Below, one piece after another: positions 11,779 through 64,000 of a stretch of 64,000 bases of DNA. A model generated the notes under the pieces. It did not search any database. It was not told the DNA's origin and saw only the letters and a list, made by a program, of their open reading frames with translations. The translations under genes were made by a program, and so were the position numbers. How positions within the stretch are numbered: the first letter of the stretch is position 1; each line of letters starts with the position of its first letter. Location of the stretch: NCBI GenBank assembly GCA_900317885.1, contig ONIM01000002.1, positions 1-64,000 on the forward strand, in the 5' to 3' direction. This DNA is from an uncultured Bacteroidales bacterium (GTDB lineage Bacteria; Bacteroidota; Bacteroidia; Bacteroidales; Paludibacteraceae).

Positions 11779-13182
11779 ATGAAGAATACGTTCTGCTATA
11801 TTGTTCTGTTAGCCGCGGTTCTTTTTACTGCGTGCGAGTCACCAGAACCACAACCTCAGCCTCAACCTCAACCGATTGATGATGGTTTGCTCCATCGCTC
11901 ATTATCTGTTTCTGATGAGTTGTTCAACAATCCCGAACGTGGGTTTCATAAAGCATTTGAATGCCATAGTAGTAGTATTACGCCTTTGACGGAAGGAACA
12001 GTGAAGGCATTTTATAATGCCGGATATACACTCATCCATATTGATTTCTATATGGAGGATTATCGTGACAAGCTCATCGAAGAGTCTTATCTGGACGCAG
12101 TCCGCCAAAGCATGCAAGCGTTGCGTAATGGTGGCTGTAAATGTGTGCTTCGTTTTGCCTATACAAATAACGAGAATCAGAGTCCGCGAGAGGCGCCTGA
12201 GGATTTCGTTCTCCAACATATTGCACAAATCAAACCCATCCTGCAGGAATATGCCGATGTCATCTTTGTGATGGAAGCCGGCTTTGTAGGTGTTTGGGGA
12301 GAATGGTACTATACCAGCGATAAATATACCGGATTCAAGCAGAATCCTATTACTGATGAAGATTATGAGAGCCGTCGCCATGTTCTCAATGCACTATTGG
12401 ATGCCCTGCCTCAAGAACGGATGGTCTGTGTCCGGACGCCGTTGTTCAAACTGAAATGTTTGAGAATTTCGGCATCTGATACGATTACAAGAGCGGAAGC
12501 TTACAACGGTACCGCAAAATCCCGTGTGGCAGCACACGATGATGCTATCATGGCAAATAGCTCTGACTTAGGTACTTTTAATTCTGTAACACGCCCCTAC
12601 TGGGAAGCGGATACGAAATACACTATCTATGGTGGCGAATCATGCCCTCCCGGATCGGAAGCATCATGTGAAAAGACATTAGACCAATTTCTAAAGATGC
12701 ATATCGGATATATCAATAATGACTATTATCGGCCTACCATCTCGAAATGGTTGTCTGGAGGTTGTTTGGATCAGATTAAGCATGAGATTGGTTATCGCTT
12801 TGAGGGAAGAGAAGTAGCCACAACGAAGAATCCTAAATCGGGAGAAGAATTGAAAGTCAAATTGTCGCTGGTTAACGTGGGCTTTTCCTCTCCGAAAAAC
12901 CCGAGAGATATAGAGATGATTCTTGTCAATACGGCGAATGAGAAAGACCGCTACGTCGTTGTCCCTGATAACGATCCACGCTTCTGGTTTACTGACGAGA
13001 TGCAATTCGTGGAGGCTACTTTCAGCCCGAAGCAGGCAGGTACATATAAACTCTATCTTAATCTACCAGACCCGAAACCCAATCTGCGCAATAACCCGCG
13101 TTACTCCATCCGTCTTGCGAACGAGAACTGTTGGGATGAGACAACCGGATATAACTACCTGACAACCATAACTGTAGAATAA
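11779..13182 (+). CDS. DUF4874/DUF4832-like lipoprotein
   Basis: 467 residues. Lipoprotein signal (LLAAVLFTAC), a PQPQPQPQP spacer (about 26-36), then a glycoside-hydrolase-like barrel region with NPERGFHKAFE, TLIHIDFYMEDY, VLRFAYTNNEN and MEAGFVGVWGEWYY, as in proteins annotated DUF4874. A C-terminal beta-rich half with NVGFSSPKNPRDIEMILVN matches DUF4832. The GEWYY and RFAY segments lie where catalytic residues of barrel hydrolases sit, but activity is unproven. One base separates it from the transporter gene downstream. Confidence 0.7.
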   Translation: MKNTFCYIVLLAAVLFTACESPEPQPQPQPQPIDDGLLHRSLSVSDELFNNPERGFHKAFECHSSSITPLTEGTVKAFYNAGYTLIHIDFYMEDYRDKLIEESYLDAVRQSMQALRNGGCKCVLRFAYTNNENQSPREAPEDFVLQHIAQIKPILQEYADVIFVMEAGFVGVWGEWYYTSDKYTGFKQNPITDEDYESRRHVLNALLDALPQERMVCVRTPLFKLKCLRISASDTITRAEAYNGTAKSRVAAHDDAIMANSSDLGTFNSVTRPYWEADTKYTIYGGESCPPGSEASCEKTLDQFLKMHIGYINNDYYRPTISKWLSGGCLDQIKHEIGYRFEGREVATTKNPKSGEELKVKLSLVNVGFSSPKNPRDIEMILVNTANEKDRYVVVPDNDPRFWFTDEMQFVEATFSPKQAGTYKLYLNLPDPKPNLRNNPRYSIRLANENCWDETTGYNYLTTITVE

Positions 13183-57685: not shown

Positions 57686-60600
57686 ATGGCTTTTAAACAA
57701 GAAAATAAGAAAACCGGTTTCACCAAGATCTCTATCGGTCTTGCGTCCCCGGACGAGATCATGCAGATCTCTTCCGGCGAGGTGCTCAAACCGGAAACGA
57801 TTAACTATCGTACCTATAAGCCCGAACGCGACGGACTCTTCTGCGAGCGTATCTTCGGTCCTACCAAGGATTTCGAGTGCCACTGCGGTAAGTACAAGCG
57901 TATCCGCTATAAAGGGATCGTCTGCGAGCGTTGCGGCGTGGAGGTCACTGAGAAGAAAGTGCGTCGTGAGCGCATGGGACATATCAAACTCGTTGTGCCC
58001 GTAGCGCATATCTGGTATCTCCGCTCGCTGCCGTCCAAGATGGCGGCGCTGCTCGGCATACCTACTAAGAAACTCGACACCGTCATCTATTACGAGAAGT
58101 ACCTCGTCGTACAGGCAGGTGCGCTCCTCGGACAGGAGATCGGTGAGAAGCATGAGAACGATAAGATCCGCATCGAGATTGAGGATAAGATGCTCCTCGA
58201 CGAGGATCAGTACCAGCAGATACTGGCGATCATGCCGGAGGATAACGAGTTCCTCGAGGATACCGACCCCAATAAGGTCATCATCAAGATGGGTGCTGAG
58301 GCTGTCTATGACCTCCTCTGCCGTATCGACCTCGACCAGCTCTCTTACGAACTCCGTGCTACTGCCGACAAGGCTACTTCCGCGCAGCGTCGTCAGGAGG
58401 CCCTCAAGCGTCTGCAGGTGGTAGAGGCTTTCCGTGCGTCGAAAGGTAAGAACCGTCCCGAGTGGATGATCCTCCAGGCTATCCCCGTGACACCGCCGGA
58501 GCTCCGTCCCCTCGTACCGCTCGATGGTGGACGTTTCGCTACATCCGACCTCAACGACCTCTACCGTCGCGTCATCATCCGTAATAACCGTCTCAAACGA
58601 CTCATGGAGATCAAAGCGCCGGATGTCATCCTCCGTAACGAGAAGCGTATGCTCCAGGAGGCGGTGGACTCCCTCTTTGATAACTCCCGTAAGACTACCG
58701 CGATGAAGTCCGAGGCGAACCGTCCCCTCAAATCCCTCTCAGACTCACTGAAGGGTAAGCAGGGACGTTTCCGTCAGAACCTCCTCGGTAAACGTGTGGA
58801 CTACTCCGCGCGTTCCGTCATCGTCGTAGGTCCGGAGCTCAAGATGCACGAGTGTGGTCTCCCCAAAGAGATGGCGGCGGAGCTCTATAAACCGTTCATC
58901 ATCCGTAAGCTCATCGAGCGTGGTATCGTCAAGACCGTCAAGTCTGCGAAGAAGATCATCGATCGCCGCGAACCGGTTATCTATGAGATCCTCGAGCACG
59001 TTATGGAAGGACACCCTGTCCTCCTCAACCGTGCGCCGACATTGCACCGGCACGGTATCCTCGCCTTCCAGCCGAAGATGATCGAGGGTAAGGCTATACA
59101 GCTCCACCCGCTCGCTTGTGCCGGATTCAACGCCGACTTCGATGGCGACCAGATGGCAGTTCACTTGCCCCTCTCTAACGAGGCGATCCTCGAGGCACAG
59201 CTCCTCATGCTCGGATCCCATAACATCCTCGACCCGGCTAACGGTAACCCGATTACCGTACCTTCACAGGATATGATCCTTGGTCTCTATTATATTACCA
59301 AGGAACGCATGGGCGCGAAAGGCGAAGGACTCACCTTCTACTCCGAAGAGGAGGCGCTCATCGCCCTCAACGAAGGACGTGTGGACATCCACGCGAAGGT
59401 CAAAGTGCGTATCAAGGGACAGATCATCGAGACCACTCCCGGACGCGTTATTGTCAACCAGTACGTGCCCGAGGAGATTGGTTATCAGAATACCCTCATG
59501 AAGAAAGGTGCCGTCAAGGCGATCATCACTCAGGTCATCAAGACCTGTGGTGTGGCGCGCGCAGCGAAGTTCCTCGACGATATCAAGGACCTCGGTTACT
59601 ACCGCGCCTTCCGCGGAGGACTCTCCTTCAACCTCAATGATATCATCATCCCCAAGGAGAAGGAAGAGGAGATCGCCAAGGGTAATGCCATCGTGGACGA
59701 TATCTACTTCAACTACGTCAACGGTCTCGTTACCGACGACGAGCGCTACCGCAAGACCGTCGATACCTGGAAGGAGATCGATGAGGAACTCAAGGGTATC
59801 GTCATGAAGCACATGCAGGAGGCGGACGAAGGATTCAACTCGGTTTACATGATGATGGACTCCGGTGCCCGTGGTAACTCCGACCAGATCAAGCAGCTCG
59901 CCGGTATCCGTGGTATCATGGGTAAGCCGCTCAAAGCCGGCTCTACCGACACCCGTACCGATATCGAGAACCCGATTCTTGCGAACTTCAAAGAAGGTAT
60001 GTCCGTGCTCGAGTACTTCATCTCTACCCACGGTGCACGTAAGGGTCTGGCGGATACCGCCCTCAAGACTGCCGATGCCGGTTACCTCACACGTCGTCTC
60101 GTCGATGTGTCGCACGATGTGATCATCAATGAGGAAGACTGTGGTACCCTCCGTGGTCTTGCTACACGCGCTGTCAAGGATGGCGACCGCGTCGTCGCTT
60201 CCCTCTCCCAGCGTATCCTCGGACGTGTCTCTGTACACGATATTCACGACGCAGAGGGCAACCTCATCGTCGCTTCCGGTGAGGAGATACGCGAGCCCCA
60301 ATGCGAGGCAATCGAGGCGGCAGGTATCGAAGAGGTGGTCATCCGCTCCGTACTCACATGCGAGTCCAAGCATGGCGTCTGCGCCAAGTGCTACGGACGC
60401 AACCTCGCTTCACGTAAGATGGTCCAGAAAGGTGAGGCTGTCGGTGTCATCGCTGCCCAAGCAATCGGTGAGCCGGGTACACAGCTGACACTCCGTACCT
60501 TCCACTCCGGTGGTCTGGCGGGTGGTTCAGCTGCGCAATCCACTTACGACCTACCGCGCGAGGGTATCGTAGAGATCGAAGATCTCCGTACTATCACTAC

Positions 60601-61969
60601 CGCGGCAGGAGATGTCATCGCTGTATCCCGTAAGAACACCCTCTCCCTCAAGGACGAGAAGACCGGCGTCGTACTCGCTACCTTCGATATACCGTATTCT
60701 TCCAAACTCTTCGTCACCCCCGGTGAGAAGTACGAGAAGGGTACGCGCGTCTGCGAGTGGGACTCCTATAAGATCCCGCTCCTCATCGAGCAAGACGGAC
60801 ATATCCGCTTCGAGGATGTCATCGAGGGAGTCACCTGTAAGACCGAGACCGATGAGCAGACCGGCAAACGCGAGGTCTATATCACCGAGTCCAAGGATAA
60901 GACCAAACTGCCGCAGGCACATATCATCGACAAGGATGGGAATATCCTCCGTTCCTACAACCTCCCTGTGAAAGCGAACCTCGAGGTCAAGGATGGCGAT
61001 GCTGTCAAGATCGGTGATACCCTCTTCTCTATGGCTCGTGCGAAGAACTCCGGCGGTGATATCACCTCCGGTCTCCCCCGTATCACAGAGCTCTTCGAGG
61101 CGCGTAACCCCTCTAACCCCGCTATTGTTGCAGAGATCGACGGTGAGATATCTTATGGTAAGATCAAGCGTGGTAACCGCGAACTCTTCATCACCTCCAA
61201 ACTCGGTGAGCAGAAGGCATACCTCATCCCGCTTACCAAGCAGATCCTCGTGCAGGAAGGCGACTTCGTCCGCGCAGGAGCCCCCCTCTCCGACGGTGCC
61301 ATCACTCCCGATGACATCCTCGCTATCCAGGGCCCGACTGCCGTTCAGAACCATATCGTCAACGAGGCACAGGCTGTGTACCGTATGCAGGGTGTGGAGA
61401 TCAACGATAAGCACTTCGAGATCATCGTACGCCAGATGATGCGTAAGGTAGAGATTCTCGAACCCGGCGATACGCGGTTCCTCGAAGGAGACATCGTCGA
61501 TAAACTCGACTTCCTCGAGGAGAACGATCGTATCTGGGGACGCAAGGTCGTTACCGACGCCGGTGACTCCGAGCTCCTCCATGAGGGACAGATCGTTACC
61601 GCACGCCGTCTCCACGATGAGAACTCTTCGTTACGCCGTCGGGATAAGAAACTCGTCCAGGCGCGCGACGCAGAGTCTGCTACCGCTAAACAGATACTCC
61701 AGGGTATCACCCGTGCTGCACTCGGTACCAAGTCCTTCATGTCCGCTGCCTCCTTCCAGGAGACCACCAAGGTCCTCAACGAAGCGGCTATACGCGGCAA
61801 GGTGGATTATCTCGAGGGTATGAAGGAGAACGTTATCTGCGGTAACCTCATCCCGGCTGGTACCGGTATGCGTGAGTTCCAGAAGATCGTCGTTCATAAC
61901 GCCGAAGAATATGCCGCTATCCAGGCAGCCCGCGAGGCTGCCGAAGCAGCCCTCAACGGCGACGAATAA
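57686..61969 (+). CDS. rpoC: RNA polymerase beta' subunit
   Basis: 1427 residues. N-terminal zinc site [19 protein letters not shown], catalytic [12 protein letters not shown] (three Mg-binding Asp), trigger loop ([61 protein letters not shown]) and second zinc site ([19 protein letters not shown]). GGAGG eight bases before the ATG is a real Shine-Dalgarno site, rare in this phylum. Confidence 0.99.
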
Positions 61970-61986: not shown

Positions 61987-62020
61987 AAAAACACCCTGCC
62001 CATCCGGCGGGGTGTTTTTT
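61987..62020 (+). terminator. Terminator after rpoC
   Basis: AAAACACCC pairs with GGGTGTTTTTT around a C/G-rich loop; strong intrinsic terminator. Confidence 0.88.
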
Positions 62021-62104: not shown

Positions 62105-62140
62105 GCGCTTGCGTATATGAAATATTTTTTGTACCTTTGC
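62105..62140 (+). promoter_or_regulatory. Promoter of the small gene-pair locus with GCGCTTGCG element
   Basis: GCGCTTGCGTATAT (62105-62118) and TACCTTTGC (62132-62140), 27 bases between element and box starts, as in the rnf and amylase promoters. Confidence 0.75.
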
Positions 62141-62158
62141 CCCGCAAAATAAATTGTT

Positions 62159-62209
62159 AATTTATTCATTTAACTAAAAACACAAAAGTTATGAAAAACA
62201 ATTTTCTAA
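62159..62209 (+). repeat. Leader repeat, copy 1
   Basis: AATTTATTCATTTAACTAAA (62159-62178) and ATGAAAAACAATTTTCTAA (62191-62209) recur at copy 2. The second part also recurs at copy 3, where it opens a surface-protein gene. Confidence 0.85.
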
Positions 62210-62325
62210 TAGATATGAGTAGAATTGAAGAATTGGAAAGCAAGGAACTCTTGACGAAAGAGGAGTTCAAAGAACTTGGTCACTACCGCATGTCTCAGAT
62301 GATTCATTCACAAGCCGCATGTTAA
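62191..62325 (+). CDS. Small protein, possible antitoxin of first pair
   Basis: 44 residues, not a recognised family. It starts MKNNFL, the same six codons as the surface protein at 63446, then MSRIEELESKELLTKEEF, a charged helical stretch. Its stop lies seven bases inside the next gene, the tight overlap usual in toxin-antitoxin pairs. An antitoxin role is inference from position; it lacks a visible DNA-binding motif. Confidence 0.5.
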   Translation: MKNNFLIDMSRIEELESKELLTKEEFKELGHYRMSQMIHSQAAC

Positions 62326-62651
62326 GATATACTCAACAAGCAAACGAAGATTTGTCTCGTATTCTTGCGGGATTGATCTCATTTCGAATAGGAAATGCGC
62401 TTGATCCGTCGCTGTCAATAGAACATGCAAATCAAATCTTCGATGACATTGTTGACAACATAGAAAAGATAGATAATCTTACATTTCATAGAACAAACAC
62501 CTTTGTGGGCTTGGATAGTTATGGTGAGTTTGTATATACTTATACAAGAAACAGAACCAATTGGTACGCGTTCTATGATAAATGTGTCGAGGGCAGTTTT
62601 GTGGTGAACCGCATTACGAATAACTGGAACATCCTCCTTCCACGGTTGTAA
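62319..62651 (+). CDS. RelE/ParE-like small protein, possible toxin of first pair
   Basis: 110 residues. LRYTQQANEDLSRILAGL, then IFDDIVDNIEKIDNL and a C-terminal beta part (YTYTRNRTNWYAFYDKCVEGSFVVNRITNNW), the order of helices and sheet in RelE/ParE-fold toxins. Residue-level similarity is weak, so toxin activity is not established. Overlaps the 44-residue gene. Confidence 0.6.
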   Translation: MLRYTQQANEDLSRILAGLISFRIGNALDPSLSIEHANQIFDDIVDNIEKIDNLTFHRTNTFVGLDSYGEFVYTYTRNRTNWYAFYDKCVEGSFVVNRITNNWNILLPRL

Positions 62652-62670
62652 AAAATCACAACTCAAAAAT

Positions 62671-62742
62671 AATTTATTCATTTAACTAAATATTTTTACA
62701 AATTTCAAAAATTTAATGCTTATGAAAAACAATTTTCTAAGT
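62671..62742 (+). repeat. Leader repeat, copy 2
   Basis: The 20-bp word of copy 1 recurs at 62671-62690. Bases 62709-62742 are identical over 34 bp to copy 3 (63433-63466), including ATGAAAAACAATTTTCTAAG, after which the frame stops (MKNNFLSC). Confidence 0.85.
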
Positions 62743-62834
62743 TGTTAATTAACGAAGAAAATTAAACTGAATAGAGAAAACAATTAGTCCGGAATGGACG
62801 AACAAAGATATAAAGCCATTTAAGATTAAGTAAT

Positions 62835-63059
62835 ATGACAGCAGTACAAACACAAGCGAGTAAACAATTCCTTGCAGCAATGGGGCCGATGGTAGAGGAT
62901 AAGGCGGCAATGCAACAAGTATTGCTTTATATCAGTACTATGAGACGCCGATCTGAATTGCCGGTGATGACAATTGAGGAAGCAGACCAACACGGTATGC
63001 CATTACATCAAGCAATGGATAAGTTGCGTGAAAAGGCACGTACATTCTACCAAGCATGA
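62835..63059 (+). CDS. Small protein, possible antitoxin of second pair
   Basis: 74 residues: QTQASKQFLAAMGPMVEDKAAMQQVLLYISTMRRR then a short C-terminal helix. Charged and helical, no known family recognised. Its stop overlaps the next start by four bases (ATGA). Sits between leader copies 2 and 3. Confidence 0.55.
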   Translation: MTAVQTQASKQFLAAMGPMVEDKAAMQQVLLYISTMRRRSELPVMTIEEADQHGMPLHQAMDKLREKARTFYQA

Positions 63060-63382
63060 TAGTGTATATTGATGAGATAGTTTACAACGTGCTTGATGAG
63101 TTTTATGATGCAAGCATGCGTAAGCATCCCTCTTTGGACTATCAAACGGTAATTGCTAAGATCGACAGACTGGAAAAAGCATTGTATGATTTCGCTGATT
63201 ATGCCGAAATGTTCCATGGAGAGCCCTATCGAAGAGATTGGCGCGAGGCAGGATATAATCAATACAATGTGGAAGGATTTAATTTTGCGTACCGTGTCTA
63301 TGTGCTACCAACCGGCGAAAAGTTGCTATATTATCATGATGCTGTGCATGATTCCTTGAACTGCAATCCGGAAGATAAATAA
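63056..63382 (+). CDS. RelE/ParE-like small protein, possible toxin of second pair
   Basis: 108 residues. A helical first half (DRLEKALYDFADYAEMFHGEPYRRDW) precedes beta strands FNFAYRVYVLPTGEKLLYYHDAVHD, compatible with a RelE/ParE fold. Not related by eye to the first pair's larger protein. Function unproven. Confidence 0.55.
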   Translation: MIVYIDEIVYNVLDEFYDASMRKHPSLDYQTVIAKIDRLEKALYDFADYAEMFHGEPYRRDWREAGYNQYNVEGFNFAYRVYVLPTGEKLLYYHDAVHDSLNCNPEDK

Positions 63383-63432
63383 TCAACAACGATTAGAAAA
63401 ATCAACATAAATAATCAAAATACTAACAATTT

Positions 63433-63466
63433 AAATTTAATGCTTATGAAAAACAATTTTCTAAGT
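63433..63466 (+). repeat. Leader repeat, copy 3
   Basis: 34 bp identical to 62709-62742; here it forms the translated start of the surface-protein gene. Confidence 0.85.
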
Positions 63467-64000
63467 AAGGCTTATGGAGGCGTGACAGTAGCACGACGTA
63501 AGCTCAATGGTCTAGGATTACCCCGACAATGGAAGGTAATGACCTCGACTTTACTCCTATTATTTACCTTCGCCATCGGTAATGTTTGGGGAGCTACTTT
63601 TGTAGAAAAGTGGCAAAACGGCAAAAACGAATCCACCAAAGCCTTAGTGGCGAATTTTACCTTAGGATCAAATGCATCGATCAACTCTAGTAGAATAGAG
63701 ATTGCAAATGGAAAAACAGGGTCTGTTACATGGACTGTTCCGACGGGTTACACTATAACTTCAGTTAAGTTCATAATGAATTCAACTGATGATAAAGTGA
63801 AAACTTTTTCTGCTACGAGTGGTACGGTAACCAATACAGCAACAAAAGAGTGGACATATGCTCCTTCCGCAAGTAATGTTAGTTCTGAAACGTTCTCTGT
63901 AGAGGCGCAAAATAATAAAGTTCAGATTAGCGAGGTTTGGGTGACTTTTACGGATGGAGTAAACGATGCTGCTACTGATTACGAGTCTATCTATCCTGTA
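63446..64000 (+). CDS. Large secreted surface protein (3' partial)
   Basis: 185 codons visible, running off the window. The N-terminus is long: MKNNFLSKAYGGVTVARRKL, then a charged stretch and hydrophobic segment STLLLLFTFAIGNVWGA as the signal peptide. The mature part has beta-strand repeats (GSVTWTVPTGYTITSVKFIMNS, TNTATKEWTYAPSASNVSSETFSV) like surface proteins exported by T9SS. The tail is beyond the window, so export class is a guess. It shares its leader with the two small gene pairs upstream. Confidence 0.75.
   Translation, partial: MKNNFLSKAYGGVTVARRKLNGLGLPRQWKVMTSTLLLLFTFAIGNVWGATFVEKWQNGKNESTKALVANFTLGSNASINSSRIEIANGKTGSVTWTVPTGYTITSVKFIMNSTDDKVKTFSATSGTVTNTATKEWTYAPSASNVSSETFSVEAQNNKVQISEVWVTFTDGVNDAATDYESIYPV

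Follow-up and report, generated by a model that had tools for sequence, protein, structure and literature searches.

The window, by which we mean the whole stretch of 64 kb analysed here, covers positions 1-64000 of contig C38 (192 kb) of an assembly of 2.1 Mb in 89 contigs. Shortly 3′ of rpoC it holds the start of a giant secreted-protein gene, called here the surface gene, with two pairs of small genes in between. The features of the locus are the following:

57686..61969, + strand: rpoC, upstream anchor of the locus (ORF)
61987..62019, + strand: intrinsic terminator 3′ of rpoC
62109..62139, + strand: promoter-like TTGC...TACCTTTG (TAnnTTTG type) 5′ of the array
62158..62214, + strand: leader copy 1, which also encodes the start of antitoxin 1
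62191..62325, + strand: antitoxin-like gene of pair 1 (44 aa; family F9; family-conserved from ~62209)
62319..62651, + strand: toxin-like gene of pair 1 (family F10, 110 aa; without a Pfam hit; ParE-like model of low confidence)
62670..62748, + strand: leader copy 2, with the dead end MKNNFLSC-stop
62749..62834, + strand: 86-nt spacer from leader copy 2 to pair 2
62835..63059, + strand: antitoxin-like gene of pair 2 (74 aa; family F1)
63056..63382, + strand: toxin-like gene of pair 2 (108 aa; family F8; predicted ParE-like fold)
63405..63466, + strand: leader copy 3
63440..64000, + strand: giant secreted-protein gene, 5′ part (MLMKNNFLSKAYGG...; ORF)

A preliminary description of this DNA had noted three copies of a leader, two overlapping gene pairs and a secreted-protein gene behind the third copy, and this layout was borne out. 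Exact ATGAAAAACAATTTTCTAA is present at 62191, 62722 and 63446, the genes of pair 1 overlap by 7 nt and those of pair 2 by 4 nt, copy 2 ends in MKNNFLSC with the stop at 62748, and copy 3 opens an ORF of 1,930 codons that runs to C38:69232 and encodes a protein with Big_2 and Listeria-Bacteroides repeats. Copies 2 and 3 share 34 identical nucleotides, a stretch to which copy 1 is 76% identical, and an exact block of 21 nt common to copies 1 and 2 ends 12 nt (copy 1) or 31 nt (copy 2) before the ATG. Two statements held in part. Each pair had been placed behind a leader, which is correct for pair 1, but pair 2 does not begin at leader copy 2, its ATG at 62835 lying 86 nt beyond the MKNNFLSC stop; by eye, this spacer does not align with the DNA upstream of pair 2 in two relatives. 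Copy 1 does run into the 44-residue gene, but the MKNNFL of that gene belongs to the leader and lies outside the antitoxin family, because the homology of pair 1 to its relatives begins at ATAGATATGAG; by eye, the codons upstream of this point differ between arrays.

The leader is ~50 nt long, has ATGCTTATG as its 3′ end and comprises a 5′ untranslated region and the first codons. With up to three mismatches, ATGAAAAACAATTTTCTAA has four matches in the 64-kb window against 0.02 expected, and with up to two mismatches the genome adds a single site (2 mismatches), at the start of another gene. We rejected the idea of a genome-wide start signal, the exact 19-mer being confined in this genome to the window locus. 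A structured RNA in the leader was likewise given no support by folding, in which five of six leader stretches, one of them misplaced, were no better than shuffles and copy 3 of the window reached a z of -2.55.

Family models gave no match to the INGELFILRGEKMYDAKGQLVK-like tail of the secreted protein, and we do not claim it as a type IX secretion client, as no sorting-tail model matched. Similar C-terminal tails have 34 matches in the same genome (E ≤0.01), in open frames of up to 3,281 codons. A nucleotidyltransferase-HEPN pair, recognised with Pfam, lies ~1.4 kb 3′ of the surface gene (L005:8774-9489, which is C38:70673-71388).

The small gene pairs as candidate toxin-antitoxin modules

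The pairs had been likened to toxin-antitoxin (TA) modules, and the likeness stands: both have the type II layout of two small adjacent or overlapping genes with the antitoxin first, and recognised toxin families occupy neighbouring modules in relatives. In the arrays, the two genes of a module are mostly separated by -13 to 3 nt. Toxin 2 is confidently modelled with a ParE-like fold, and hence with a known toxin fold of type II systems; its predicted model has a pLDDT of 89.7, and the seven best PDB matches are all chains of TA complexes (ParDE, PfiAT) with probability 1.00, at E-values of 1.2e-3 to 1.1e-2, none below 0.001. For toxin 1 the first eight PDB matches are ParE complexes (probability 0.97-1.00, TM ~0.5), which makes a ParE-like fold only suggestive because the pLDDT of the model is 57. 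The toxin function of both proteins is therefore putative, based on fold, gene order and the company they keep.

Neither toxin matches the Pfam ParE profile (PF05016) up to an E-value of 1, both pairs are without a Pfam family over the cut-off or an NCBIfam hit, no PADLOC model matches any of the four window proteins, PHROGs gave only weak hits of unknown function, and a PDB sequence search with profiles of the two toxins returned nothing credible. No sequence relation between toxins 1 and 2 was found. Between toxin 1 and the F17 toxins of other arrays there is a resemblance (hhalign 91.8%, with profiles of only 10 and 3 sequences). In the genus, 12 of 178 genomes gave a match to toxin 1, in two cases a short fragment, and 11 of 61 genomes gave one to toxin 2. 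Public relatives of pair 1, eleven in number, are labelled Paludibacteraceae or Bacteroidales; some of them are MAGs from the duodenum of roe deer and from horse faeces. An origin from phages or plasmids was discarded, neither toxin having relatives in the plasmid or phage collections, and searches of viral contigs with toxin 2 alone and with one exact 28-nt leader sequence found neither.

Arrays and leaders in related genomes

Of 178 genomes in the genus, 141 have a match to the C-terminal 149 aa of RpoC, and DNA downstream of rpoC was obtained for 75 loci of other genomes (40 + 35), in 74 of which the ORFs were inspected. By eye, 22 of these loci and our own carry a leader- or array-type interval that ends in a giant secreted-protein gene; small gene pairs are present in 20 of the 23, and three (G006, G034 and G106) have the surface gene without pairs. 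The remaining inspected loci have other genes in this slot, and two genomes with a PIN-like ORF near rpoC (G017 and G074) were not counted as arrays. Fifteen further arrays lie outside the rpoC slot, 12 of which were located with the leader pattern and the other 3 with toxin 1; this gives a table of 38 arrays from which the fetched loci L168, L202 and L210 were left out. The window locus is thus one case of a wider arrangement in the genus, in which Paludibacteraceae-like gut MAGs carry arrays of 0 to ~5 TA modules ending in a giant secreted-protein gene.

Clustering of the small ORFs over the 38 arrays gave recurrent modules. Pfam assigned ParE (F4, F7), YafQ (F6), PIN (F13), Gp49 (F24), a DUF4160/DUF2442 pair, and HEPN and HepT with nucleotidyltransferase partners (F11, F5, F3), and gave no family over the cut-off for F8, F10 and F17. 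Of 36 ParE hits in 16 of 20 genomes, 10 fall in arrays, a count that is no proof because the 20 genomes were picked for having arrays. The cargo is not of the TA type alone, as F19 precedes an aspartyl-protease-like ORF. Such cargo behind a leader was seen as a DUF5678-like plus an aspartyl-protease-like ORF (L207:1483-2171; L180, turned, 2337-2897), and in G163 the DUF5678-like ORF is followed only by a short ORF.

The order of the modules is not fixed: F1F7 precedes F2F6 in G199 and G147 and follows it in G163, and F9F10 comes after a PIN module in G082 and G157, after F1F7 in G174, and first in the window and in G173. A single antitoxin N-terminus (SAAQAIASSRFL...) occurs with three different C-termini, and each of these goes with a separate toxin (F4, F7 or F8), so that recombination seems to reach into the antitoxin gene; examples of this shared F1 N-terminus are L164:1112-1369, L182:1810-2064 and window:62835-63059. 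Two loci showed further features of their own. In G082 a serine-recombinase-like ORF (L063:10852-11463) lies ~2.4 kb downstream of the surface gene, flanked by ORF6N-like and DUF4160/DUF2442-like genes, all named by eye, and in G031 a second homologue of pair 2 lies ~12 kb downstream of rpoC, before another giant surface gene (L075, turned, 11833-12389).

It had been proposed to look for the leader at other loci, and it was found in many genomes of the genus, before antitoxins and surface genes and not before toxins. A search with the leader pattern, which fails to detect divergent leaders (those of G000, for example), returned 49 sites in 27 of the 178 genomes and none with the reversed control, at one locus per genome with the exception of G034, which has two. 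Gene starts in the 38 arrays, other than those of HEPN and nucleotidyltransferase genes, were then scored against a 41-nt consensus (AACCAATTTTTTTGTTTAACTTTAAAAATTTAATGCTTATG) with a threshold of 20, shuffled sequences averaging at most 12.3. This score was reached by 39 of 57 antitoxins, by none of 52 toxins and by 31 of 38 surface genes, the last count being partly by construction because 12 of the 15 arrays outside the rpoC slot were found via the leader and the 23 in the rpoC slot were chosen by visual inspection; 18 antitoxin and 7 surface-gene starts fall below the threshold. A single ordinary gene duplication, which had been named as the explanation to be excluded, does not account for a leader that recurs at antitoxins and surface genes in many genomes and is absent from toxins. 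The starts of the window score 14, 7 and 17, all under the threshold, so its array is a divergent member. The window type of leader also precedes two surface genes of G152, where tandem surface-type ORFs each carry it, with a small gene between them (L190, turned, 1308 and 2468).

Leaders also resemble each other within an array. For different modules of one array the likeness of the leaders is 0.704, against a mean of 0.654 (sd 0.012) in 2,000 family-preserving permutations, none of which reached the observed value. In comparisons that are not independent of each other, the leader of a module was nearer to the surface-gene leader of its own array than to the leader of the same module elsewhere in 603 cases, farther in 198 and tied in 25.

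Promoter motif, junctions and module turnover

The motif TAnnTTTG, which we take to be the Bacteroidetes -7 element, is present in the window as TACCTTTG at 62132-62139, downstream of the strong rpoC terminator. It precedes 33 of 44 first starts as called by script (shuffled rate 0.12), or 31 of 38 once six that are really inner starts behind an unclassified ORF are removed, two of which have the motif 185-189 nt away. Before internal starts it was found in 0 of 71 cases (shuffled rate 0.03), the scanned stretches being short, so that ~2 would be expected at this rate. An own promoter is typical of type II TA modules, though not defining, and at these internal starts its motif is missing. Fourteen stand-alone homologues of pairs 1 and 2 were retrieved, and the motif stands before 10 of the 13 with an antitoxin ORF. 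In the window's own genome, contigs C34 and C54 hold more TA-like pairs 5′ of other secreted-protein genes (L228, L229, L230), three of which carry their own TAnnTTTG motif, and both ParE hits of this genome lie within ~1.7 kb upstream of secreted-protein genes. No terminator-like site was detected inside 32 arrays, by a scan that is insensitive and misses many sites, because it was positive in only 9 of 19 control stretches 3′ of rpoC.

The preliminary description had suggested comparing relatives for the presence or absence of each pair, and the comparison agrees with its view of the pairs as cassettes between leader repeats: pairs are missing, replaced or reordered, with breaks mostly at the leader, pair 2 of the window not being flush with its own. 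G197 and G172 share 95.6% identity from 5′ of a HEPN-nucleotidyltransferase module exactly through the ATGCTTATG of the ORF that follows; in G197 that ORF is the surface gene, in G172 a YafQ module. In G082 and G097 a block of 97.6% identity corresponds to the pair 1 module with a leader at each end and stops 11 nt into the surface gene, and around the end of rpoC the two are only 72% alike. G199 and G147 are 96-98% identical on both sides of a difference of one whole module. In the comparison of G199 with G093 the break falls within an antitoxin gene, and in G093 no toxin follows that antitoxin.

For 69 same-gene pairs with differing or unclassified upstream neighbours, identity is 0.87-0.90 over the 20 nt directly upstream of the ATG and 0.36-0.59 beyond 70 nt from it; for 10 same-gene pairs with the same upstream neighbour it is at least 0.79 out to 130 nt. 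Identity of the module and of the 120-nt rpoC tail is 0.993 versus 0.883 in G082/G097 and 0.782 versus 0.992 in G163/G172, and since the two disagree in both directions the modules seem to move independently of the host. At the level of sequence, these comparisons establish a modular layout, a shared leader, one promoter motif and a turnover of modules mostly at leaders.

Proposed mechanism and relation to known systems

The reading that we favour, and consider probable, is that of a one-promoter operon in which leader-bounded TA cassettes precede a giant secreted-protein gene and are exchanged by homologous recombination, with expression-linked addiction as a putative benefit. TA modules would sit as cassettes between the operon promoter and the surface gene, most of them beginning with a copy of the leader that also opens the surface gene. 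Exchange would take place by homologous recombination between leaders, with incoming DNA or between copies, and would need no dedicated integrase. A captured TA pair would shed its own promoter and be transcribed from that of the operon. Since the antitoxins would then depend on the operon promoter, stable toxins would be set free if the operon were lost or silenced, and the modules would in this way keep the operon, and hence the surface gene, in place and switched on. Recombination at leaders, promoter loss on capture and addiction linked to expression are the steps that we infer. The preliminary description had also raised an effect of the pairs on expression of the surface gene, and the single-promoter layout makes such an effect plausible. 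Addiction would not be absolute, because several modules look decayed, with shortened toxins in G168, G092, G170 and G015 and none left in G093.

The leader might instead be a mere shared translation-initiation or regulatory element, kept by selection for co-expression, with modules arriving by illegitimate recombination. The leader is AT-rich and extends into the first codons, as translation signals would, and the five of six stretches (one misplaced) that are no more structured than shuffles fit this as well; on the other hand, in two swaps the homology of relatives ends at, or within 11 nt of, the leader start codon, and leaders co-vary within an array, so that we regard this explanation as unlikely. 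A rather improbable alternative is that the array is an anti-phage (abortive-infection) island, its adjacency to the surface gene being incidental or the surface protein being the phage receptor. TA and HEPN-nucleotidyltransferase modules can serve phage defence, and the position of both ParE hits of the window's genome, also within ~1.7 kb upstream of secreted-protein genes, may be counted in its favour; yet no PADLOC model fits the four window proteins, and the sharing of a leader with the surface gene is left unexplained.

A single promoter before promoterless modules in shuffled order would also be expected of an integron or integron-like element whose site-specific recombinase uses the leader as an att site, and the recombinase-like ORF 2.4 kb 3′ of the surface gene of G082, named by eye, could be such an enzyme. 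However, the integron integrase model TIGR02249 is over its cut-off in none of 20 array-bearing genomes, weaker matches to it occur in all 20 and equally in 14 of 14 control genomes, the leaders fold poorly and vary from array to array, and no recombinase was noticed within the arrays whose ORFs were inspected, all of which makes this explanation very unlikely. That two ordinary TA pairs merely came by chance to lie beside a gene start that had been duplicated has a negligible probability in our view: TA pairs are common and often mobile, but the 19-mer is expected 0.02 times, and the same architecture recurs in tens of genomes and at several loci.

The favoured operon of leader-bounded cassettes has parts in common with several known systems. 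In the Vibrio cholerae superintegron, reshuffled and generally promoterless cassettes stand behind one promoter and TA cassettes stabilise the array (PMC11551772, PMC11023631), the TA cassettes of integrons carrying their own promoters (PMC11023631). To that extent the arrays resemble sedentary chromosomal integrons, with promoterless, reshuffled cassettes, TA modules included, behind one promoter. They differ in that no integron integrase was found over the cut-off in the 20 array genomes, the borders are poorly folding leaders and not folding attC sites, the TA modules show no promoters of their own, in contrast to integron TA cassettes, and the arrays end in a giant secreted-protein gene. 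The small overlapping antitoxin-toxin genes and the model of toxin 2 recall type II systems of the ParE/RelE superfamily (ParDE), whereas the window pairs lack Pfam (over the cut-off), NCBIfam and PADLOC hits and the array modules lack an own promoter motif. Polymorphic toxin loci are reported to diversify their toxins through recombination with stand-alone cassettes (PMC3482391). Recombining cassettes would thus be common to both, and the arrays are unlike those loci in having whole TA modules upstream as separate genes. The titles and abstract openings of the open-access literature, among the matches listed, contained no description of such arrays, subscription papers being mostly outside this search. 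Taken as a whole, a capture of modules at the leader of the surface gene without an integrase, followed by promoter loss and yielding a lock, backed by toxins, that keeps a variable giant surface protein from being silenced, is a tentative proposal, which we hold to be possible and somewhat doubtful.

The arrangement has the look of a cassette system that lacks the usual integrase, and it may tie survival of the cell to keeping the operon switched on. TA modules are usually regarded as self-contained units with their own promoter, and the fact that families which lack a promoter motif in the arrays have one where they stand alone offers a natural experiment on TA expression ceded to a host operon. 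The system would test whether cassettes can be exchanged with no more than short leader repeats and no integrase, and whether addiction protects the expression, beyond the presence, of neighbouring genes.
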